Shown in pieces: positions 3,425-32,835 of a stretch of DNA of 36,779 nt (positions are counted from its first letter, which is position 1; the number at the start of each line of letters is the position of its first letter). The DNA comes from a candidate division WWE3 bacterium CG08_land_8_20_14_0_20_40_13 (GTDB lineage Bacteria; Patescibacteriota; WWE3; 0-14-0-20-40-13). The translations under genes were made by a program, and so were the position numbers. The stretch spans positions 1 through 36,779 of the forward strand of contig PEYT01000027.1 in assembly GCA_002774285.1 (NCBI GenBank). Reading direction: 5' to 3'. The notes below the pieces were generated by a model, which was not told the origin of the DNA, made no database searches, and was given only the letters and a program-made list of their open reading frames with translations.

Positions 3425-3478
3425 AATTGGTTAAATTTGTCAAATTAGTTCAATTAGACAAATTTGACTAATAATTAA
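3425..3478. repeat. 9-bp-period degenerate repeat
   Basis: AATTGGTTA AATTTGTCA AATTAGTTC AATTAGACA AATTTGACT. Confidence 0.85.
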
Positions 3479-3482
3479 AACC

Positions 3483-4031
3483 ATGAGTTACGAAAACCTA
3501 TTAGTTTACAGGTTAGCCGTTACAATATATGACGCCAATGAGCAGTTTTATAAGAAATTCCTAAAAGAGTATGCTCATAAAAGGTTGGTGGAACAAATGA
3601 CCCATGCGGCAAGGTCGGGTAAACAAAACATTGTAGAAGGGGTCTTGGAAAAAAGCATGGAAAGTGGGCTAAAATTAGTTGGTGTTGGACGCGCTAGCTT
3701 TGGCGAGCTTTTGGAAGACTACAAGGACTTTATTAGAAGCCACAAATATAATCTTTGGGACAAGAACGATCCCCGGGTTGTAAAAATTCGTACCTTTAAG
3801 GAAGATACTGCTAATGTTACCAATTTAGCTAATATTGCCAGTTGGACTAATTTGGATTTAGAAAAACCGGAAGAATACGCAAACATAATGGTTTGCCTGC
3901 TTTTTAAGGAAAATTATTTATTAGATAGGTTTTACAAGTCCTTGGAGGAGCAGTTTATTAAGGAAGGGGGATTTCGCGAAAACCTATTTAAGAAACGCTT
4001 AGATTACAAAAAAACAAATTTGTCTAATTAG
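3483..4031 (+). CDS. Four helix bundle protein (23S rRNA IVS/Avd-like superfamily)
   Basis: SYENLLVYRLAVTIYDANEQF..QMTHAARSGKQNIVEG..GELLEDYKDFIR. Confidence 0.75.
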   Translation: MSYENLLVYRLAVTIYDANEQFYKKFLKEYAHKRLVEQMTHAARSGKQNIVEGVLEKSMESGLKLVGVGRASFGELLEDYKDFIRSHKYNLWDKNDPRVVKIRTFKEDTANVTNLANIASWTNLDLEKPEEYANIMVCLLFKENYLLDRFYKSLEEQFIKEGGFRENLFKKRLDYKKTNLSN

Positions 4032-4065
4032 TCCAATTGGACTAATTGGTCTAATTTGATAATAT
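4017..4065. repeat. 9-bp-period degenerate repeat
   Basis: AATTTGTCT AATTAGTCC AATTGGACT AATTGGTCT AATTTGATA. Confidence 0.85.
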
Positions 4066-4088: not shown

Positions 4089-5339
4089 ATGTTGCAAACA
4101 AATCTTTTTACTAAAACTCGCAGGGAAGCGCCAAAAGACGAGACAAGCGTTAATGCCCAACTTCTGATTCGTGGCGGTTTTATCCACAAAGAAATGGCTG
4201 GTGTTTATAGCTTTTTGCCTTTGGGCTTTATTGTTCTTAATAAAATAATCAACATTATCCGCGAGGAAATAAACGCCATCGGAGGGCAGGAAATTTTAAT
4301 GTCGGGTCTTCAAGATCCGGCAATTTGGAAAGCTTCCGGTAGGTGGGACCAAAAAGTGGTGGACTCCTGGTTTAAGACAACCCTTGCCAATGGGGGAGAG
4401 TTGGGTTTGTCGTTTACCCACGAAGAACCCATTGCCAGAATAATGACAAATCATATCAATTCATACAAAGACCTACCTAAATATGTGTACCAATTTCAGA
4501 CAAAGTTTCGCAACGAAAAAAGATCCCAAGGGGGGTTACTTCGCACTCGGGAATTTATTATGAAAGATTTATATTCCTTTTCCGCAACCCAAGGAGAGCT
4601 TGACGAATTCTACGAAAAAGCGCGGCAAGCCTACGTAAATATCTTTAACCGGATTGGGATAGGGGATAAAACTTATTATACATTGGCAAGCGGTGGGGTG
4701 TTTTCCAGATATTCCCACGAGTTTCAGACGGTGTGCGAGGTAGGGGAGGATGAGATTTATATAAAAGAAGGAGCTCTCGAAGCGGTAAATAAGGAAATTA
4801 TGAATGATTCGGGTTTTGATTCGGGTGAAACCCTAAAGGGTTTCACCCGCATTTCGGAAAAATCCGTCGAAGTTGGAAATATCTTTAAGCTGGGCACAAA
4901 ATACTCCGAGGCGTTGGGATTAAAATATCATGACAATATCGGCAAAGAGCACCATGTCATTATGGGAAGCTATGGCATTGCGCCATCCCGTTCTATGGGG
5001 ACGGTTGTAGAATTACACCACGATGATCAGGGAATAATTTGGCCTGCTAGCATTGCCCCCTTTAAATACCATATTCTTTGCGATAACAACTCGGACGAAG
5101 CAGTTAAGCAGTCAAACGATCTGTATGCTAAGTTAGTAGCAGATGGCTCAGAATCTCTGCTAGACGATCGGCCAGAGACTTTAGCGGTAAAGATTAAGGA
5201 TGCTGATCTTATCGGCTGTCCCGTTCGGATAATAGTTTCTAAAAAATCATTGGAGGCGGGAGGGGTGGAGGTTAAAGGCCGTAAAGATTCTAATATCAAG
5301 GTGATTGCCAGTGAAAATCTTTTTAATTTAAAATTTTAA
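4089..5339 (+). CDS. proS: Prolyl-tRNA synthetase (short form)
   Basis: Class II aaRS motifs; FTHEEPIARIMTNHINSYKDLPKYVYQFQTKFRNEKR; start 4089 preferred over 4056. Confidence 0.93.
   Translation: MLQTNLFTKTRREAPKDETSVNAQLLIRGGFIHKEMAGVYSFLPLGFIVLNKIINIIREEINAIGGQEILMSGLQDPAIWKASGRWDQKVVDSWFKTTLANGGELGLSFTHEEPIARIMTNHINSYKDLPKYVYQFQTKFRNEKRSQGGLLRTREFIMKDLYSFSATQGELDEFYEKARQAYVNIFNRIGIGDKTYYTLASGGVFSRYSHEFQTVCEVGEDEIYIKEGALEAVNKEIMNDSGFDSGETLKGFTRISEKSVEVGNIFKLGTKYSEALGLKYHDNIGKEHHVIMGSYGIAPSRSMGTVVELHHDDQGIIWPASIAPFKYHILCDNNSDEAVKQSNDLYAKLVADGSESLLDDRPETLAVKIKDADLIGCPVRIIVSKKSLEAGGVEVKGRKDSNIKVIASENLFNLKF
4822..4849. repeat. Palindrome inside proS
   Basis: CGGGTGAAACCC-taaa-GGGTTTCACCCG. 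Confidence 0.92.
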
Positions 5340-5358: not shown

Positions 5359-5994
5359 TTACGCAGAGGTTCTCCCCTCCATTGCCCTTTTAAGAGTTGT
5401 TTCGTCAGCGTATTCCAAATCTCCGCCTGTTGGAAGGCCTCGTCCGATGCGGGAGATCCTGATTAGGGTACTACCACATTTTTCCAATTTGTTTTTAATG
5501 TACATCGCAGTAGCCTCGCCCTCTAGGTCGGGGTTGGTTGCAAGTATGATTTCTAATTTATCTAATTCATAGGGGGTAGTACCCGATAGGGTACTACCCC
5601 ATTTTTTAATACGGGAAAGTAGATCTTCTATAAAAAGCTCTTCGGGGCCAATGCCCGCAATAGGATTTATAGCGCCGTGAAGCACATGGTACAGTCCGTT
5701 GTAGCCCGATTTTTCCAAAGCCAGAACATCCAAAGGAGACTCCACCACACAAATTTTTTCTTTGTCTCTTTTAGGATCGGCGCAAACCTCGCAGATTTCA
5801 TCCTCGCCAACATTTTTACAAATTTTACAAATTTTGGTTTGTTTTAAGGCAGACACCGAGTCAGCAAAGGTGTCAAGTCGCTCCTGCGGTACTCTTAACA
5901 AATGAAAAGTTAAACGCTCTGCCGTTTTGGGTCCGATGCCGGGGAGCGATTCAAAGGAATCTTTAAGAGATTGTAATGGTTTTGGTAAATGCAT
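5359..5994 (-). CDS. recR: Recombination protein RecR
   Basis: LPGIGPKTAERLTFHLL, CxxC zinc finger, ILATNPDLEGEATAMYI, GGDLEYADETTL. Confidence 0.93.
   Translation of the reverse strand: MHLPKPLQSLKDSFESLPGIGPKTAERLTFHLLRVPQERLDTFADSVSALKQTKICKICKNVGEDEICEVCADPKRDKEKICVVESPLDVLALEKSGYNGLYHVLHGAINPIAGIGPEELFIEDLLSRIKKWGSTLSGTTPYELDKLEIILATNPDLEGEATAMYIKNKLEKCGSTLIRISRIGRGLPTGGDLEYADETTLKRAMEGRTSA
5573..5600. repeat. Palindrome inside recR
   Basis: GGGGTAGTACCC-gata-GGGTACTACCCC. Confidence 0.92.
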
Positions 5995-6002
5995 AGAAAA
6001 CA

Positions 6003-6047
6003 AATTAGTCTAATTGGACTAATTAGTTAAATTGGTCTAATTTGATA
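6003..6047. repeat. 9-bp-period degenerate repeat
   Basis: AATTAGTCT AATTGGACT AATTAGTTA AATTGGTCT AATTTGATA. Confidence 0.85.
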
Positions 6048-6063: not shown

Positions 6064-7572
6064 TTATAGGGGAGCCTTGCCGTCCAAAACTTCCCAAGCC
6101 TCCTTGATTTTATCAGGGGGAACCACTCCTTTAATCGGTTCTATATTCTTATCGCTTAAATCCTCCTTGGACGCAGGTTTTTGCTTGCTTAATGTTACCT
6201 TGATTGCTACTGCCCGGCCCAATATTTTTTCTAGGGCTGTTTCTACAATCTTTTTATTTGTTGGTGAATTTAGCCGTTCCCTGTGGAAAGAGTAAAAAGC
6301 TTCAATTACAAGTGATTCGTTGTCGTCGTCAAAGCCCAATATTTTACACGAGCGAAGTAACGCCTCAACCGAGTGGTTTAGGGGGCGGACGGCCTCGTAT
6401 AACTTTTCTATGGAAAAGGCGGGGGGATTAGGAGGAGAAGAGGGGGCAGATAAGATTGATTCGGGTTCCACCCTAAAGGGTGGAACCCGATTTAATTCTT
6501 CGGTCAAATCTACCACTGCCACCTCCAGCGGCAAAAAGGGAATAGTGGCAAACCTAATTTGTCGTCTTGCTTCTCCAAAAGATTTAATAAGTCCGGAAAT
6601 TTGTGGAAGCGTTATTACCTTTATTGGATCTATCAAAAGAGCATCGTTGCCAGCGCCAACCTTGGCAAAAAGCAGGCTTTGTAGATACTCCAAAAAGCTG
6701 TCGGTCCAGCTTTCGGCACCAATACCGGTTTCAAAAGTTTTTTCCAGATACTCAAGAGCTACTTTGGTATTGGGTTTAATGGCAATATCATAAACAAATT
6801 TTGCCAATTCGTCTGTATCGGAAAGGGCAATTAATTCGTCCACCGTGATTTGTCCAAAGACCACCTGTTCCAGCATGGTTTCGGCGTCGCGGAAACCTCC
6901 TAAAGCGGCCTTGGCGATTTTTTTTAGGCTTTCGTCAGATAGCTCCGGAACTGGTGTTTTTTCTTTTTGTTCTGCGTCTAAAATTCTTTTTAACTTTTTT
7001 ACAATGTCCAAAACGGTGGCGCGTTTAAGCTCAAATTGTTGACAACGGCTTCTTATAGTCTCCGGAACTTTTTTAAATTCGGTGGTACAAAGGACAAAAA
7101 CGGCGTGCGGTGGCGGCTCCTCCAAAGTTTTTAAAAGCGCGTTAAAAGCCTCGTTTGTCAGCATGTGAACCTCGTCAATTATATAAACCTTAAAACGGCC
7201 GGCGGCGGGGGAAAGCGCAATTTTGTCGCGGAGTGACCGGACATCGTCAATGCCGCGGTTACTGGCGGCGTCAATTTCGATAAGATCTATATACGAGCCG
7301 TTGTCTATTGCAATGCAGTGATCGCAGGTGCCACAGGGTTCAGAATTGGTCAAATTAGGCGTATTTGTTAAATTAGACAAATTTGATTTTTGACAATTGA
7401 GGGCCTTGGCGATAAGGCGGGCCATGGTTGTTTTGCCAACTCCGCGGGGACCGTATAAAAAAAAGGCGTGTGCGAAGTTTTTGGAAAAAATTGAGTTTTG
7501 GATAGCGCGCGAAAGGGTCTCGCTTCCTAAAAACTCGCCAAATTTGCGCGGACGGTACTTGGTGTAAAACAT
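6064..7572 (-). CDS. dnaX: DNA polymerase III subunit gamma/tau
   Basis: GPRGVGKTTMARLIAKALNC, CxxC zinc motif, IDEVHMLTNEAFNALLKTLEEPP. Confidence 0.95.
   Translation of the reverse strand: MFYTKYRPRKFGEFLGSETLSRAIQNSIFSKNFAHAFFLYGPRGVGKTTMARLIAKALNCQKSNLSNLTNTPNLTNSEPCGTCDHCIAIDNGSYIDLIEIDAASNRGIDDVRSLRDKIALSPAAGRFKVYIIDEVHMLTNEAFNALLKTLEEPPPHAVFVLCTTEFKKVPETIRSRCQQFELKRATVLDIVKKLKRILDAEQKEKTPVPELSDESLKKIAKAALGGFRDAETMLEQVVFGQITVDELIALSDTDELAKFVYDIAIKPNTKVALEYLEKTFETGIGAESWTDSFLEYLQSLLFAKVGAGNDALLIDPIKVITLPQISGLIKSFGEARRQIRFATIPFLPLEVAVVDLTEELNRVPPFRVEPESILSAPSSPPNPPAFSIEKLYEAVRPLNHSVEALLRSCKILGFDDDNESLVIEAFYSFHRERLNSPTNKKIVETALEKILGRAVAIKVTLSKQKPASKEDLSDKNIEPIKGVVPPDKIKEAWEVLDGKAPL
6462..6489. 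repeat. Palindrome inside dnaX
   Basis: CGGGTTCCACCC-taaa-GGGTGGAACCCG. Confidence 0.92.
7344..7388. repeat. 9-bp-period repeat in frame inside dnaX
   Basis: AATTGGTCA AATTAGGCG TATTTGTTA AATTAGACA AATTTGATT. Confidence 0.8.
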
Positions 7573-9366: not shown

Positions 9367-9948
9367 TTGAAAATTTTATTGATCGGCCTTGGAAACCCCG
9401 GTTCCAAATACAGAAATACGCTTCATAACGCGGGTCATCTCTTGGTGGATTGGTTAAAAAAGGGGTCTCACGAGACCCCATTCCCGATTAAGACTTCTTC
9501 TTTCATGAACGAGTCGGGGAAGGATGTTTTAAAGATTCTTAAGAAATGGGGCAGTGCCCCGAAAGGCCCGCCGGCGCAGGCAGGGGCCCTGCCACAATTC
9601 ATGATCGCCCATGATGATATAGACATTCCCCTTGGTAAATTTAAAGTAACATTTGGCAACACTTCTGGTGGCCACAAGGGAGTCCAATCTGTAATTGATT
9701 CTTTAGGAACAAAGAATTTTTGGCGGATTAGGATTGGGGTACAGCTTCTCTCGTATGATCCAAAAGTAGATAAAGCGGAAGATTGGGTGTTGGGAGAGTT
9801 TACGGAGGAACAGTTGGGGGTGTTGAGGGAAGTGTTTCCAGACATTAAGAAATTTCTAATTAACCTAATTAACCTAAACAATTCCCAATTAGTAAGTCTC
9901 AATTTTTCTAAATCCGGGAAATTGGAACTTGGTGCTTATTTAGAATAA
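9367..9948 (+). CDS. pth: Peptidyl-tRNA hydrolase (internally shortened)
   Basis: IGLGNPGSKYRNTLHNAGH; FMNESGKDV; AHDDIDIPLGKFKV..GGHKGVQSVIDSLG; TTG start. Confidence 0.9.
   Translation: MKILLIGLGNPGSKYRNTLHNAGHLLVDWLKKGSHETPFPIKTSSFMNESGKDVLKILKKWGSAPKGPPAQAGALPQFMIAHDDIDIPLGKFKVTFGNTSGGHKGVQSVIDSLGTKNFWRIRIGVQLLSYDPKVDKAEDWVLGEFTEEQLGVLREVFPDIKKFLINLINLNNSQLVSLNFSKSGKLELGAYLE
9462..9479. repeat. Short palindrome inside pth
   Basis: GGGGTCTC-ac-GAGACCCC. Confidence 0.8.
9547..9596. repeat. Composite degenerate palindrome inside pth
   Basis: TGGGGCAGTGCCCC..CCGGCGCAGGCA..GGGGCCCTGCCACA. Confidence 0.75.
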
Positions 9949-9997: not shown

Positions 9998-11443
9998 ATG
10001 TCCAACACTCTTTTCTTTTACAACTCTCTCTCCCGCAAAAAAGAAACCTTTATTCCCATTGATCCTAAAGAGATCCGTGTTTACACCTGCGGTCCTACCG
10101 TTTATAACTTTGCCCATATCGGGAATCTGCGGACTTATATTTTTAACGATTTGCTCCAAAGAACGCTTATTTTTTTGGGATACAATGTAAAACGGGTAAT
10201 GAATATAACCGATGTGGGGCATCTTTCCGGCGATGGGGATATGGGAATGGACAAGGTAGAAAAAGCCGCTAGTGAAAAAGGAATGAATGCGTGGCAGTTA
10301 TCCGACTATTATCTTGAAGCATTTAAGAAAGATATGGAACGGCTTAATATGTTATCGCCAACTATTTGGGAAAAGGCCACCGCAACTATTAAAGAGCAAA
10401 TCAACCTAATTAGCCAAATAGAACAAAAAGGATTTACTTATAAAACAAGCGATGGGATCTACTTTGACACAAGCAAGTTTCCAGAATATGGCGCGATGTC
10501 GTCACTCACAAATGACGGGATAAAAGAGGCGGCGCGGGTGGATTTTAATGCCGAACGGAAAAATCCCCGCGACTTTGCTTTGTGGAAATTTAACACAACG
10601 GGTAAAAAACGGGCTATGGAATGGGACTCACCTTGGGGGATAGGGTTTCCGGGTTGGCACACTGAGTGTTCGGCGATTTCTCTAAAACATCTTGGAAATC
10701 CTTTTGATATTCATACTGGAGCAATTGACCACAAAGAAACTCATCACCCGAATGAAATTGCTCAAACTGAGGTGGCAACAGGGAAAAAGATGGCAAATTT
10801 TTGGTTGCACGCGGGATTTCTAAATGCGGAGAGCGATCAGAAAATGGCAAAATCCAAGGGGAATTTTTTAACGCTTCAAAGTGTTATAGACCGTGGTATT
10901 AACCCCTTGGCTTACCGCCTATACACATACGGAATGCATTGGCGGCAGACCGCGGCTTTTTCTTGGGAGGCCTTGGGTGGTGCCACACGAGCCTTTGGTA
11001 GGTTGCAGGTTTTTGTCCAAGAGAATTTGCCAAATTCGACCAATTTGCCAAATTACGATGATCGGGGCAGTGCCCCCGCAGGGGCACTGCCCCAATTCAA
11101 GGAAAGATTTTTGCAAGCGTTATCCGACGATCTAAACATGCCGCAAGCTATGGCCGTTGTTTGGGATTTAGTAAACACATCTAAAAAAGGTAACTTTCAA
11201 GCAGAGGCTGTTAAACTGCTTTTAGACTTTGATCGTGTTCTTGCATTAGGATTTAGTCAAATTATACCAATTGGACAAATTCCCGAGAACATTAGCAAAT
11301 TAATTGCCGAAAGAGAGCAGGCAAGGGCTAGTAAAAACTACGCCCTTGCCGACAAACTTCGCGACCAAATCCAAAAACTTGGCCACACCGTCGTTGACAA
11401 ACAGCCCATAGTTTGGTACAATAGACAGGCATTGCTGGTTTAG
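9998..11443 (+). CDS. cysS: Cysteinyl-tRNA synthetase
   Basis: YTCGPTVYNFAHIGNLRTYIFNDLL..GWHTECSAIS..KMAKSKGNF. Confidence 0.95.
   Translation: MSNTLFFYNSLSRKKETFIPIDPKEIRVYTCGPTVYNFAHIGNLRTYIFNDLLQRTLIFLGYNVKRVMNITDVGHLSGDGDMGMDKVEKAASEKGMNAWQLSDYYLEAFKKDMERLNMLSPTIWEKATATIKEQINLISQIEQKGFTYKTSDGIYFDTSKFPEYGAMSSLTNDGIKEAARVDFNAERKNPRDFALWKFNTTGKKRAMEWDSPWGIGFPGWHTECSAISLKHLGNPFDIHTGAIDHKETHHPNEIAQTEVATGKKMANFWLHAGFLNAESDQKMAKSKGNFLTLQSVIDRGINPLAYRLYTYGMHWRQTAAFSWEALGGATRAFGRLQVFVQENLPNSTNLPNYDDRGSAPAGALPQFKERFLQALSDDLNMPQAMAVVWDLVNTSKKGNFQAEAVKLLLDFDRVLALGFSQIIPIGQIPENISKLIAEREQARASKNYALADKLRDQIQKLGHTVVDKQPIVWYNRQALLV
11064..11093. repeat. Palindrome inside cysS
   Basis: GGGGCAGTGCCCC-cgca-GGGGCACTGCCCC. 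Confidence 0.92.
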
Positions 11444-12114: not shown

Positions 12115-12908
12115 ACAACATGATTTTCAATTGGGACAATATCCAAAAATCGGCGGTATCTTTAGGAATGCCAATTGATAAAAGAAGAGCGTTAGTCAGG
12201 GAATACCTACAGGCAAAATTTATTTACGAACTGTATGGTCAAAATTATGCCAGAAAGCTATCATTTATCGGTGGAACGGCGTTGCGAATATTAAGGAATA
12301 TTCCAAGGTTTTCAGAAGATCTAGACTTCGATAATTTGGGTATTTCTGATAATAAAATTGAGGATCTGGTGGGGGAAGTCCGCAAGGTTTTTGTAAGGGA
12401 GAATATAGAGTGCGAGCTTTCTGTTAAGAAAAACGAGGAAAAGTCTTATTTTGAGATTAAGTTTCCAAACCTTCTTGCTCCCCTTGAAATAAGCCATAAT
12501 CCCAAGGAAAATCTTATGATAAAAGTGGATAGCTCAAAAGGTTGGAAAAAGCAAAATTTGGAAACACAACCACTTTTGAGATTTGGTTATGCAAGGAACA
12601 TTTTGACGAACTCTTTGGATAACTTACTGGTACAAAAGCTTTCGGCGTATGTTTTTAGGGAGGAAACGCAACCAAGAGATATTTATGATATTGTGTGGCT
12701 TTACGCCACGGGGGCAAGATTTGACAAAGATTTCGCCGAAAGTAACGGGTTTGCGGACTTGCTGGAATTGGCGGTAGACAAATACAAGACCGAAGGATTA
12801 AAAACTACTTTTTCCCACAAGCTTGCTCCATTTCTTATCAATCCCGGCGATGTCTCTTCACTAAATACCTTTGGAGAGGTTTTGAAGAGATTGTGGATGT
12901 TGGTATAG
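12111..12908 (+). CDS. AbiEii/AbiGii-type nucleotidyltransferase toxin
   Basis: FIGGTALRILRNIPRFSEDLDFD motif; LQPRDIYDIVWL-like region (TQPRDIYDIVWL). Confidence 0.88.
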   Translation: MNNMIFNWDNIQKSAVSLGMPIDKRRALVREYLQAKFIYELYGQNYARKLSFIGGTALRILRNIPRFSEDLDFDNLGISDNKIEDLVGEVRKVFVRENIECELSVKKNEEKSYFEIKFPNLLAPLEISHNPKENLMIKVDSSKGWKKQNLETQPLLRFGYARNILTNSLDNLLVQKLSAYVFREETQPRDIYDIVWLYATGARFDKDFAESNGFADLLELAVDKYKTEGLKTTFSHKLAPFLINPGDVSSLNTFGEVLKRLWMLV

Positions 12909-18614: not shown

Positions 18615-19685
18615 ATGGCCTTAAGCGTAGGGATCGTGGGATTGCCGAATGTGGGGAAATCTACCCTCTTTAACGCAATCCTTAAAAGGCAGGTGGCTTA
18701 TGTTGCCAATTACCCATTTGCCACGATAGAGCCGAATGTTGGTGTCGTCGAGGTCCCTGATTTTCGCGTGGACAAACTTTCCGAACTTTCCAAATCCGAG
18801 AAAAAAGTGTACTCAACTATTACATTTATAGATATTGCGGGTTTGGTCAAAGGCGCCTCGACCGGCGCAGGACTCGGGAACAAATTTTTATCCCACATCC
18901 GTGAGGTGGACTTGATTATGCTCCTTTTACGAGATTTTGAAGATTCCGAAATTATCAGGGAGGGTTCAACCAATCCCGAAAGCGATGCGGAGGTTTTGTT
19001 GACCGAATTGAAGTTAAAGGATTTAGATACTTTATCAAAATCAGAAAAAGGGGGCAGTGCCCCGCAGGGGCACTGCCCCGATGTTTTGAAAAAAGCGACT
19101 GAGATTCTAGATAATGGTCAATTGTTATCGGAAGCCTTGTGGACAAAGGAAGAACTAGAAATTTTAAGTCAGTTCTCTCCACTTACGATAAAGCCAATAC
19201 TTAAGGTGCATAATGTTTCCGAAAAGAATTTAAATTGGGCCACTGCCCCTGCCTGCACAGGCAGACCCGTGGGGCAGTGCCCCGATCCTATGAAAGTATC
19301 TGCGAAAATTGAGTTTGAATTGGCCTCATTGTCAGAAGAGGATCAAGGGCAGTACCTTATAGACTTAGGACTTGTAGAATCTCCTCTTAACGCGGTTATC
19401 AAAAGGGCGTATGAAATGCTTAATCTTCGCACCTTTTTAACGACTGGTGTAAAAGAAAGTCGCGCGTGGAAGTTTGTTGAGGGCTGGGACGCGCAAAAGT
19501 GCGCGGGAGTAATTCACTCGGATTTTGAAAGGCTTTTTATTGCTGGGGATGTTATTCCTTATGAAAAATTTATCGAGGCAGGTTCCTTGGTCACTGCAAA
19601 AGACAAAGGGTGGGTACGGCTTGAAGGAAAAGAATACATTATGAAAGACGGGGATGTGGTGGAATTTAGAGTAGGGCGGGGATAA
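18615..19685 (+). CDS. ychF: Redox-regulated ATPase YchF
   Basis: GIVGLPNVGKSTLFNA; ATIEPNVGVVEVPD; TTGVKESRAW..GVIHSDFE. Confidence 0.95.
   Translation: MALSVGIVGLPNVGKSTLFNAILKRQVAYVANYPFATIEPNVGVVEVPDFRVDKLSELSKSEKKVYSTITFIDIAGLVKGASTGAGLGNKFLSHIREVDLIMLLLRDFEDSEIIREGSTNPESDAEVLLTELKLKDLDTLSKSEKGGSAPQGHCPDVLKKATEILDNGQLLSEALWTKEELEILSQFSPLTIKPILKVHNVSEKNLNWATAPACTGRPVGQCPDPMKVSAKIEFELASLSEEDQGQYLIDLGLVESPLNAVIKRAYEMLNLRTFLTTGVKESRAWKFVEGWDAQKCAGVIHSDFERLFIAGDVIPYEKFIEAGSLVTAKDKGWVRLEGKEYIMKDGDVVEFRVGRG
19051..19079. repeat. Palindrome inside ychF (copy 1)
   Basis: GGGGCAGTGCCCC-gca-GGGGCACTGCCCC. Confidence 0.92.
19237..19283. repeat. Composite nested palindrome inside ychF (copy 2)
   Basis: GGGCCACTGCCCC + TGCCTGcaCAGGCA + GGGGCAGTGCCCC. 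Confidence 0.85.
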
Positions 19686-26142: not shown

Positions 26143-26982
26143 ATGGAACCCGAAAGTAAGATGCTCGCAAATTATCGCGAGAAGGAAGTAAAATATGTTG
26201 TATCGCTTGTAAAAGGACTTAATTTTGTCTGTGTGTTTTGTCGTTCGGGTTTTGGGTTGTCGCGGTTTTTGCGGTTCCTTGTTTTTTATCCCTCTAATCC
26301 TTCCGTTCCTTCTCTTTTGTATGAAAACCTTTTGGAATGAGACAATGGCGCCGATTTTCTGATGCACTTAAATACTGTAGTGGCAAAGGAGGATAAGCAA
26401 CTTTGCTTTGTTATAGACGAAGTGCTTTTGGACCGCAATTTTTTTTGCGCGCCTTACGGCTTTTAGGGCAAGACGCAAGGGAAGGGTTTGTTTTGTTCTT
26501 GGTATTTACGGCGGACATGCGGACTTGGCAGAGGCTTCATATGTAAAAAATTTGGTGGGGGAGAATGTATTAGAGCTTGATGCTTTAACAATTGAGGATT
26601 TTACCTGGTCGGTAAAAGATCTAGCAAAACAGTTGAATTGGAATGAGACCCCTTTTGAGGAGTGGGTTTTAAAGATGTACCGAGAAACCGGCTGGAATAT
26701 TGCTAAAGCGAGGGATATTCTACAGCACGACGTCAAGGAAATGTTGCTGGAACAACAAAATATCAGGTACTACCCGATTCGGGTAGTACCTGATATTTGG
26801 TGACTAGAGATGATATTGCCAAAGCACTTTCTCCAAAAAGCTTGCGAGATGGGGTATCCAACGAGACAATAGATCAACTGATATTTAAGGTAAGGAAGAA
26901 ACTGAGGGAAAACAACATTCCTAAAGAAATTAAAACCATTGCCGACCGTGGGTACACAATGTTGGTATGGCCCTTTTTCTAA
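26143..26982 (+). pseudogene. Decayed P-loop ATPase/winged-helix regulator gene
   Basis: Pieces in several frames: GFGLSRFLRF, LCFVIDEVLL, NLVGENVLELDALT.., then VSNETIDQLIFKVRKKLRENNIPKEIKTIADRGYTM. Confidence 0.6.
26758..26798. repeat. REP-like near-perfect palindrome (20-bp arms, 1-nt centre)
   Basis: AAATATCAGGTACTACCCGA-T-TCGGGTAGTACCTGATATTT. Confidence 0.9.
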
Positions 26983-29942: not shown

Positions 29943-29973
29943 TGGGGCAGTGCCCCTGCGGGGCACTGCCCCA
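29943..29973. repeat. Intergenic palindrome
   Basis: TGGGGCAGTGCCCC-tgc-GGGGCACTGCCCCA. Confidence 0.92.
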
Positions 29974-29979
29974 TTACGA

Positions 29980-30020
29980 ATTGGTCTAGTTTGGCCAATT
30001 AGTTTAATTAGTTAAATTTG
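29980..30020. repeat. 9-bp-period degenerate repeat
   Basis: AATTGGTCT AGTTTGGCC AATTAGTTT AATTAGTTA AATTTGATT. Confidence 0.8.
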
Positions 30021-31291
30021 ATTAGAGGAAACACTTCTTTTAAGGAAATTGTTTTCTGCGACCTTTTACCCAAATCCTTTATCGTAACCGTATTATTTGC
30101 AACTTCATCTGGACCTATTATTACCGCGTAAGGAATTTGTTTTTCCGAGGCGTATTTTAATTGTTTTGCAATATCGGCTTTTTGGTTTAGGTAGATTTCC
30201 GAGGGGATGTCGCTTTTCCTAAGGTACGAGAGAGCCTTTAAAGCGTAGGGAAATAAGGGGGATGGGGAAGATTGGGGAGATATAAATGGCGAAGCCAAGA
30301 TAACTAACGCTCTTGTTGTTGTATTTGGCAGTGCGTTTGCAAAAAGCCCTAGTTCTAAAATAACATCGCAGATGCGTTCAAAGCCAAAAGAAAGTCCTGT
30401 AGCCGGCGTGTCTTGTCCGCCAAAAGATTTAATTAAATTATCGTACCTTCCGCCGCCCAGCACCGAACCAATTTTGGGTTCAGCAACAACACCTTCCACG
30501 ACCATTCCGGTATAGTAGTCCGCCCCTCGGGAAAGAGTAGGGGAAAAAACAAGTTTTTCTTTGGGAATTCCTAAAAGAATTGCGTAATCCATGATTGCTT
30601 TTAGGTTTTCTGTTGGAGAAGAATTGGTTAGATTAGCAAAAATTTGTTTAATTAATCCAATTTGGAGGCCATTTTTTGAGAGATCTTCTAAAACAGCATC
30701 TTGCCCAATTTTGTCTAGCTTGTCCAAAGATCTCGCGACCTGCATTTGTTTTTCGCAGTCGGTTACATCAAGATCGGAAAGCAAATTATACAAAACCTCG
30801 CGCGAGCCGATTTTAAAAGAGAAACCACCATCAAGACCTAGTTTTTTAACAATCTCCCAAGCGCAGGATAACACCTCGGCATCGGCAAGGGGGCCCTTTT
30901 CTCCAAAAATGTCAATGTCGCACTGCATAAACTCGCGGTAGCGGCCCTTTTGTGGTTTTTCGGCGCGGTAGCACCTTTGCATCTGGCTTCTTCTAAAGGG
31001 ATATCTTATCTTTCCGGAATTTTCTGCCAAATATCTTGCTGTGGGGACCGTTAAATCATAAATTAGTCCAATATCCCGTTCGCCAAGGTCTTTAAAAATG
31101 TAAGTTTCCTTATCTGTGTCGGTCGAATATTTTGCAAGAAGCGTTTTAGCGTATTCTAACGAGGGGGTTTCTAAAGGTTCAAAACCAAATATCTCAAATG
31201 TTGTACGGAAAATTTGGGAAACAAAATTTCGCACCCGCATTTGTGATGGGCCAAAATCCCGAAAGCCTTTTAGAGTTTGCGCTTTTTCCAT
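30008..31291 (-). CDS. hisS: Histidyl-tRNA synthetase
   Basis: KGFRDFGPSQMRVRNFV; DLTVPTARYLAEN; GGGRYDNLIKSFGGQDTPATGLSFGFERI. Confidence 0.95.
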   Translation of the reverse strand: MEKAQTLKGFRDFGPSQMRVRNFVSQIFRTTFEIFGFEPLETPSLEYAKTLLAKYSTDTDKETYIFKDLGERDIGLIYDLTVPTARYLAENSGKIRYPFRRSQMQRCYRAEKPQKGRYREFMQCDIDIFGEKGPLADAEVLSCAWEIVKKLGLDGGFSFKIGSREVLYNLLSDLDVTDCEKQMQVARSLDKLDKIGQDAVLEDLSKNGLQIGLIKQIFANLTNSSPTENLKAIMDYAILLGIPKEKLVFSPTLSRGADYYTGMVVEGVVAEPKIGSVLGGGRYDNLIKSFGGQDTPATGLSFGFERICDVILELGLFANALPNTTTRALVILASPFISPQSSPSPLFPYALKALSYLRKSDIPSEIYLNQKADIAKQLKYASEKQIPYAVIIGPDEVANNTVTIKDLGKRSQKTISLKEVFPLIKFN

Positions 31292-31919: not shown

Positions 31920-32055
31920 TTTTTCTCCTTTCCCCCGACTGTCTCCTGTCAGTGGAAAAACAGGAATGGGAATATGTGGTAGATATTATTCCGTCATTAT
32001 ACCATAAAAAACCTATAGTTTTACAAGTGGGGGATGGGGTGCCGAAGATGTGCAA

Positions 32056-32088
32056 ATCGGGTACTACCCGATTCGGGTAGTACCCGAT
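32056..32088. repeat. REP-like palindrome upstream of RAYT gene
   Basis: ATCGGGTACTACCCGA-T-TCGGGTAGTACCCGAT. Confidence 0.92.
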
Positions 32089-32141: not shown

Positions 32142-32798
32142 ATGCCCTCGAGAAATATCTATAAGGTTTTTGCTGAAGGTGCTTATTACCATGTATATAA
32201 TCGCGGCGTTGAAAAGAGAGTAATATTTTCTGACGAGCATGATTACAAGGTTTTTATCCACAATCTTCGTCGCTACCTAGAGCCCGGATTTAAAGTTGTT
32301 AGAGAAGATCCCAAAACCAAAAAACCCATTCTTGCTACTCCGAATTCTTCTTTTGATAAAATATCACTTTTGGCTTTTTGCTTAATGCCAAATCATTATC
32401 ATTTAATTGTTAAGTTAAAGAAAAAGGAGGGGCTTACTGATTTGATGAAAAAGGTTTGCACAAACTATACAGGCTATTTTAATTCCAAATACGACCGTGT
32501 TGGCAAGCTTTATCAGGGAATTTACAAAGCCGTCCCGATAAAGAGCAGAGAACAATTTATTCAAGTTACAAGATATATTCATCTAAATCCTTTGGGGATC
32601 GTTAAATTTAGCAAACTGCAAGACTACCCATTTTCTAGCTTTTACTACATTTCCAGAAATGCTAAAAAGTCTTGGCTTAATTGGGAAGAAGTTTTGGGAG
32701 ATATGTCTTTGGAAAAGTATAGGAACTTTATGGAATCTTTTGCTGAATCTGATGACGACAACAAATACGATAGTATTAATGATTTGTTGTTAGAGTAA
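32142..32798 (+). mobile_element. REP-associated tyrosine transposase (RAYT, Y1/IS200-like)
   Basis: EGAYYHVYNRGVEKRVIF; FCLMPNHYHLIVK (HUH); GYFNSKYDRVGKLYQGIYKA; YIHLNPL. Confidence 0.92.
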
Positions 32799-32806
32799 CA
32801 AAAAAG

Positions 32807-32835
32807 CGGGTACTACCCGAATCGGGTAGTACCCG
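32807..32835. repeat. REP-like palindrome downstream of RAYT gene
   Basis: CGGGTACTACCCGA-A-TCGGGTAGTACCCG. Confidence 0.92.

Follow-up and report, generated by a model that had tools for sequence, protein, structure and literature searches.

The palindromes carried by proS, dnaX and recR of this candidate division WWE3 bacterium belong to a genome-wide family of short hairpin doublets whose abundance far exceeds chance. These doublets are probably REPIN-like non-autonomous mobile elements spread by RAYT-type Y1 (HuH) transposases. In the window, i.e. the whole 36,779-nt stretch of DNA that we analysed, sequence checks identified the proS palindrome as CGGGTGAAACCCTAAAGGGTTTCACCCG (4822-4849), the recR palindrome as GGGGTAGTACCCGATAGGGTACTACCCC (5573-5600) and the dnaX palindrome as CGGGTTCCACCCTAAAGGGTGGAACCCG (6462-6489), all three exactly as spelt in the sequence-only reading of this DNA. 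The proS copy is a GGGT-TTC/GAA doublet translated in frame as SGETLKGFTR, in a loop that varies in sequence and length among relatives. The other two, both in minus-strand genes, are a GGGT-ACT/AGT doublet coding for WGSTLSGTTP in recR and a GGGT-TCC/GGA doublet coding for RVPPFRVEP in dnaX. The claim that essential genes harbour such copies was thus borne out, all three being in frame.

The window also contains GGGGC-ACT-GCCCC pairs and single halves absent from that initial list. GGGGC-ACT/AGT doublets are found in frame in cysS (11064-11093, peptide RGSAPAGALP, in a divergent region ahead of the DALR domain) and in ychF (19051-19079, peptide GGSAPQGHCP), and in the intergenic region downstream of hisS (29943-29973). 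A second, decayed pair of the GGGGC type with a 21-nt spacer is present in ychF (19234-19286), and a single GGGGC-AGT-GCCCC half at 9548-9560. An intergenic ACT doublet at 26755-26801 harbours two substitutions that mirror each other in the long hairpin (AGGT ... ACCT). Lastly, two ACT doublets form the left end (32056-32088, core 32058-32086) and the right end (32807-32835) of a RAYT transposon.

Another repeat family of the window is AT-rich and made of AATTNGNC-like units forming palindromes such as CAAATTTGTCTAATTAGTCCAATTGGACTAATTGGTCTAATTTG. Its copies are found at 3426-3472, 4015-4058, 6001-6044, 7345-7386 and 29980-30021, and similar ones are present on other contigs of the same genome and on contig C18 of its sister genome.

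We searched the window's own genome (G000; 633,810 bases, or 634 kb, in 32 contigs) for pairs of GGGT-NNN-ACCC units with the pattern GGGTNNNACCC-N1-6-GGGTNNNACCC. There were 25 matches, all 25 with complementary triplets, and none for the reversed pattern used as a genome-wide control. When any 4-bp stem was allowed, we collected 38 same-stem pairs with complementary triplets, compared with 0-1 per Markov shuffle (n=5). Among GGG-stem pairs, 36/39 are complementary, against a mean of 7.1 and a maximum of 17 when the second triplet was permuted. In the sister genome (G001), which belongs to the same family but to a different genus, the corresponding figures are 31/37 against a mean of 5.5 and a maximum of 14. 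As the family and the order of G000 include one further genome, comparisons drew on class and phylum samples. The genome-wide regular-expression search with triplet-complement test and shuffles that had been proposed as a check confirms the palindrome family.

The triplets are a small number of discrete classes rather than freely covarying. On GGGT stems of G000, these are ACT/AGT (11 doublets), TCC/GGA (9) and TTC/GAA (5). GGGC-ACT (7) and a few GGGA-TCC and GGGA-TAC doublets represent the other stems. The classes of G001 are ACT, TTA (on a GGGA stem), GAG and GAC, with a few singletons. Most copies are perfect across all 22 stem and loop positions. The 4-5-nt flanks are class-specific in both genomes and often unlike at the two ends; in the TCC class, for example, GATTC may be found on one side and AAATC on the other. 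The flanks are mostly GATTC or AAATC in the TCC and TTC classes, GATTA in TTA and A-rich in ACT. Because class differences extend to these bases, the loop is not the sole candidate label. No GTAG or GTGG tetranucleotide was found 0-2 nt from the hairpin in the doublets of the two genomes (0/76), and the class-specific flanks could substitute for it as a tag or guide.

The framework was said to be constant and the triplets to change with full compensation. A constant framework with changing, complementary triplets indeed describes G000 (25/25), but full compensation breaks down in relatives. Of the 86 GGGT doublets of G000, G001 and a third genome, G011, 73 are complementary by hand count, 10 are direct, i.e. 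with identical triplets, and 3 have a one-base uncompensated mismatch, with no case of unrelated triplets. The direct and uncompensated doublets of the relatives identify the single triloop hairpin as the repeated unit, and the complementarity of the triplets results mostly from inverted copying, the second half being an inverted copy of the first. Each half is a triloop hairpin by itself, as had been noted. On paper, a doublet may fold into a single long hairpin or into a pair of small ones, as had been proposed, but the former is by far the more stable, with a predicted free energy of about -14 to -17 kcal/mol compared with -3.8 kcal/mol per small DNA hairpin. In three decayed copies (window 26765-26791, C13:70348 and C25:28831), mirrored substitutions keep the long hairpin paired but disrupt a base pair in the small hairpins, which suggests to some extent that the long hairpin does form in DNA. 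A regulated switch between the long and twin hairpins is not supported by any of our results.

Three Y1 transposases are encoded in G000, in the window, on contig 25 and on contig C11. The window protein (32142-32798, plus strand, 218 aa) matches Pfam PF01797 and scores 50.3 bits with NCBIfam NF047646, under the curated cut-off of 80. Its HuH pair (H85/H87) and tyrosine Y145 are invariant in an alignment of 30 sequences. A longer ORF starting at 32034 crosses the left doublet and probably represents an over-extended start. The AlphaFold model of the protein has a mean pLDDT of 92.4. Although a sequence search against the PDB gave no match, the best PDB match of the model in a fold search was 4er8, a RAYT-REP hairpin complex (E 2.9e-7, TM 0.53/0.68). 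The ISDra2 transposase came next, and that of IS608 lower.

The window RAYT gene has an ACT doublet on each side, in line with the ACT/AGT flanks announced for it, and the contig-25 gene has a TCC doublet on each side. The 29-nt end cores, CGGGTACTACCCGAATCGGGTAGTACCCG and CGGGTTCCACCCGAATCGGGTGGAACCCG, respectively, differ in their triplets only, and the two proteins are 44% identical. The flanks of the third gene (L128) share another structure, CTTCCACTTCCGAAGTGGAAG and ACTTCGGAAGTGGAAG; no GGG-kind triloop was found in them, and this gene is not bracketed by the dispersed palindromes. RAYT genes of G001 have GAC or TTA elements on both sides. Those of G011 have CAG and TAA loops in their flanks, and of the 37 doublets that a later search recovered from that genome, 35 belong to these classes (hand count). 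Some classes are orphans: for TTC, GGGC-ACT, GGGA-TCC and GGGA-TAC in G000, and for ACT and GAG in G001, no matching RAYT was found in the assembly (92-97% complete).

We extended these analyses to 135 testable RAYT loci from the class and phylum samples, looking for a triloop hairpin with a 4-bp stem common to both flanks. Such a hairpin was found at 63 loci, compared with a mean of 0.4 and a maximum of 2 when flanks were swapped between genes; the flanks of the other 72 share none. In a tree of 63 RAYTs, a clade of 36 that includes the window gene has mostly GGG[TAC] or AGG[TA] stems. Its 35 labelled members represent 13 loop types and at least 22 loop changes, a descriptive count made without a shuffle control. 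Dispersed copies of the exact pattern are few or absent in most other RAYT genomes, and of 10 genomes searched for dispersed AGGT-type doublets, only 2 had any. RAYTs that share a genome have distinct hairpins in every case examined. The number of such cases does not suffice to propose that co-resident RAYTs actively avoid each other's hairpins. A second RAYT clade has the opposite stem polarity, with ACCC-NNN-GGGT, ACAC-NNN-GTGT or ACCT-NNN-AGGT hairpins (loci L200, L217, L220, L234, L237, L244, L254, L261 and others).

According to a crude gene call, 24 of the 39 GGG-stem doublets of G000 are in ORFs, about 13 of them in genes supported by homology, and about a third of the copies are in frame within conserved genes. 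The genes hit are topA and a gene for a PMT-like membrane protein (two doublets each), mnmA, an aldolase-like gene, argS, proS, recR, dnaX, cysS and ychF; one further doublet is located at the end of a Nudix gene. As the crude ORF set covers 94% of the genome, genic doublets are rarer than the coding fraction predicts, as expected if selection removes most insertions.

Several of these copies are in-frame insertions absent from orthologues. The recR copy is a clean insertion of 11-12 residues relative to solved RecR proteins and to relatives. At the first topA site, G001 has a 12-residue gap where G000 carries the doublet, and the doublet of the aldolase-like gene is also a clean insertion. 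Conversely, a tRNA-ligase-like gene of G001 carries a doublet and its G000 homologue is empty. We rejected proS as a proof of insertion, since the region is about equally long in element-free relatives. The second topA site is an insertion relative to Escherichia coli TopA. It harbours a GGGC-ACT doublet in G000 (L003, 13763-13789) and a GGGT-ACT doublet at the same spot in G001 (C18:692-718), with matched base-pair changes in both halves, which could reflect a target common to the two genera or the replacement of one element by another. One site in the PMT-like gene and one in mnmA look common to both genera and partly decayed in G001. Apart from the doublets, topA (L003, contig C3, about 12729-12794) has another in-frame insert, VPAFAKASADRQIPNS, missing from E. 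coli TopA. As peptides with weak similarity to it (PAFAKATAGKQ, AFAKASAGK) occur elsewhere in G000 and G001, this insert may be a separate coding repeat.

Explanations other than transposition have to be considered. That the doublets are chance palindromes or an artefact of codon usage has virtually no probability left, given the 38 pairs as opposed to 0-1 in the shuffles and the absence of the reversed pattern as opposed to 25 forward matches. Alternatively, they might be RNA structures, alternating between long and twin hairpins and maintained by compensatory mutation, that act on the mRNAs of essential genes. The predicted hairpins are strong, and the mirrored substitutions of the three decayed copies would fit as well. 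Nevertheless, the loops fall into a few discrete classes common to transposase ends, relatives retain direct doublets and uncompensated loops, the copies are located in intergenic regions as well as in unrelated genes and share no position, and an Rfam search matched only a tRNA. We consider a role as RNA structures to be very improbable.

Somewhat less improbable, though still unlikely, is that the doublets represent immobile fossils, or else DNA sites bound by a host protein, with a purely historical link to RAYTs. The orphan classes could be accounted for in this manner, and so could the PMT-like and mnmA sites that appear to be shared between the genera. However, the perfect conservation of most copies over 22 positions suggests that they are recent or maintained, and the occupancy of sites differs between the two genera.

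Transposition by RAYTs is thus our preferred explanation. The REP unit would be a GC-rich stem of 4-6 bp closed by a 3-nt loop, with doublets usually inverted. By homology, and by analogy with the work on REP_Sm of Stenotrophomonas maltophilia (PMC8266576), each RAYT monomer would bind a single-stranded triloop hairpin, with the stem as the shared framework; the triloop, perhaps along with a few adjacent bases, would label the class. The enzyme would then cut the doublet and join it elsewhere. Within essential genes, copies would survive when they add a multiple of three nucleotides and land in tolerant protein loops. The site differences between genera would fit mobilization of the doublets by RAYTs, and we infer the transposed length, predicted at about 36 nt in genes, the cut sites and the present activity of the elements. 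The REP_Sm data provide a direct precedent for the proposed mechanism: reversing the 3-nt loop severely affects cleavage and compromises binding, and changing the first loop base abolishes cleavage (PMC8266576). More tentatively, and with the balance slightly against it, RAYTs sharing a stem might diversify by triloop changes, so that co-resident RAYTs would not move each other's elements, amounting to a three-base loop code.

Published systems already include REP doublets (REPINs), RAYT genes with their own REPs on the flanks, genomes holding several classes, and REPs located within genes (PMC3116915, PMC2817692, PMC3733652, PMC6006769). Like REPIN/RAYT systems (Bertels and Rainey 2011, PMC3116915; Nunvar 2010, PMC2817692), our elements are inverted doublets of a short palindrome with several classes per genome, RAYTs flanked by their own class, and singlets and decayed copies. 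In contrast with them, they have no GTAG/GTGG tag and a core of only 26-31 nt, a genome has about 39 doublets instead of hundreds, many are intragenic rather than mainly extragenic, and the cores of two resident classes differ in the triloop only. The perfect stem and small loop are reminiscent of the Group 3 TnpA_REP/REP systems of S. maltophilia and Marinomonas (Corneloup 2021, PMC8266576), whose loop bases are needed for in vitro activity (a 3-nt loop in REP_Sm), but in those REPs the stem is longer (8 bp in REP_Sm) and a GTAG motif is present. In-frame palindromes in protein genes, often genes for replication, repair or tRNA function, are also known from intragenic REPs and from the palindromic elements of Rickettsia (Di Nocera 2013, PMC3733652, and works cited therein). 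Unlike these, the coding palindromes described here are tied by class to resident RAYTs and add a peptide of about 12 residues. Judged by description rather than by sequence, the RAYT loci also resemble Y1 genes with atypical flanks (subclass 2.6, Quentin 2018, PMC6006769; TIR-flanked TIRYT genes, Di Nocera 2013, PMC3733652), whose flanking repeats are devoid of GTAG and can have further genomic copies. The words Parcubacteria, Patescibacteria and 'candidate phyl' do not occur in the text of Quentin 2018 (PMC6006769), and a literature search for RAYT with Parcubacteria, in which subscription journals were hardly covered, returned no paper. What is new is a branch in Patescibacteria devoid of the GTAG tag, together with a naturally occurring set of RAYT-triloop pairs. 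The very short units and the frequent in-frame copies are further differences from published REPs.

The recognition by RAYTs of their own REPs as opposed to others is known for few enzymes. With two co-resident RAYTs whose end cores differ in the triplets only, and dozens of RAYT-loop pairs within a single phylum, loop specificity becomes directly testable. Should the loop code prove true, it could be read from the more than 60 RAYT-loop pairs of Patescibacteria, which would serve as a natural library. In a very small genome, these elements add short Gly/Pro/Ser-rich peptides to essential proteins, a case of selfish DNA writing protein.
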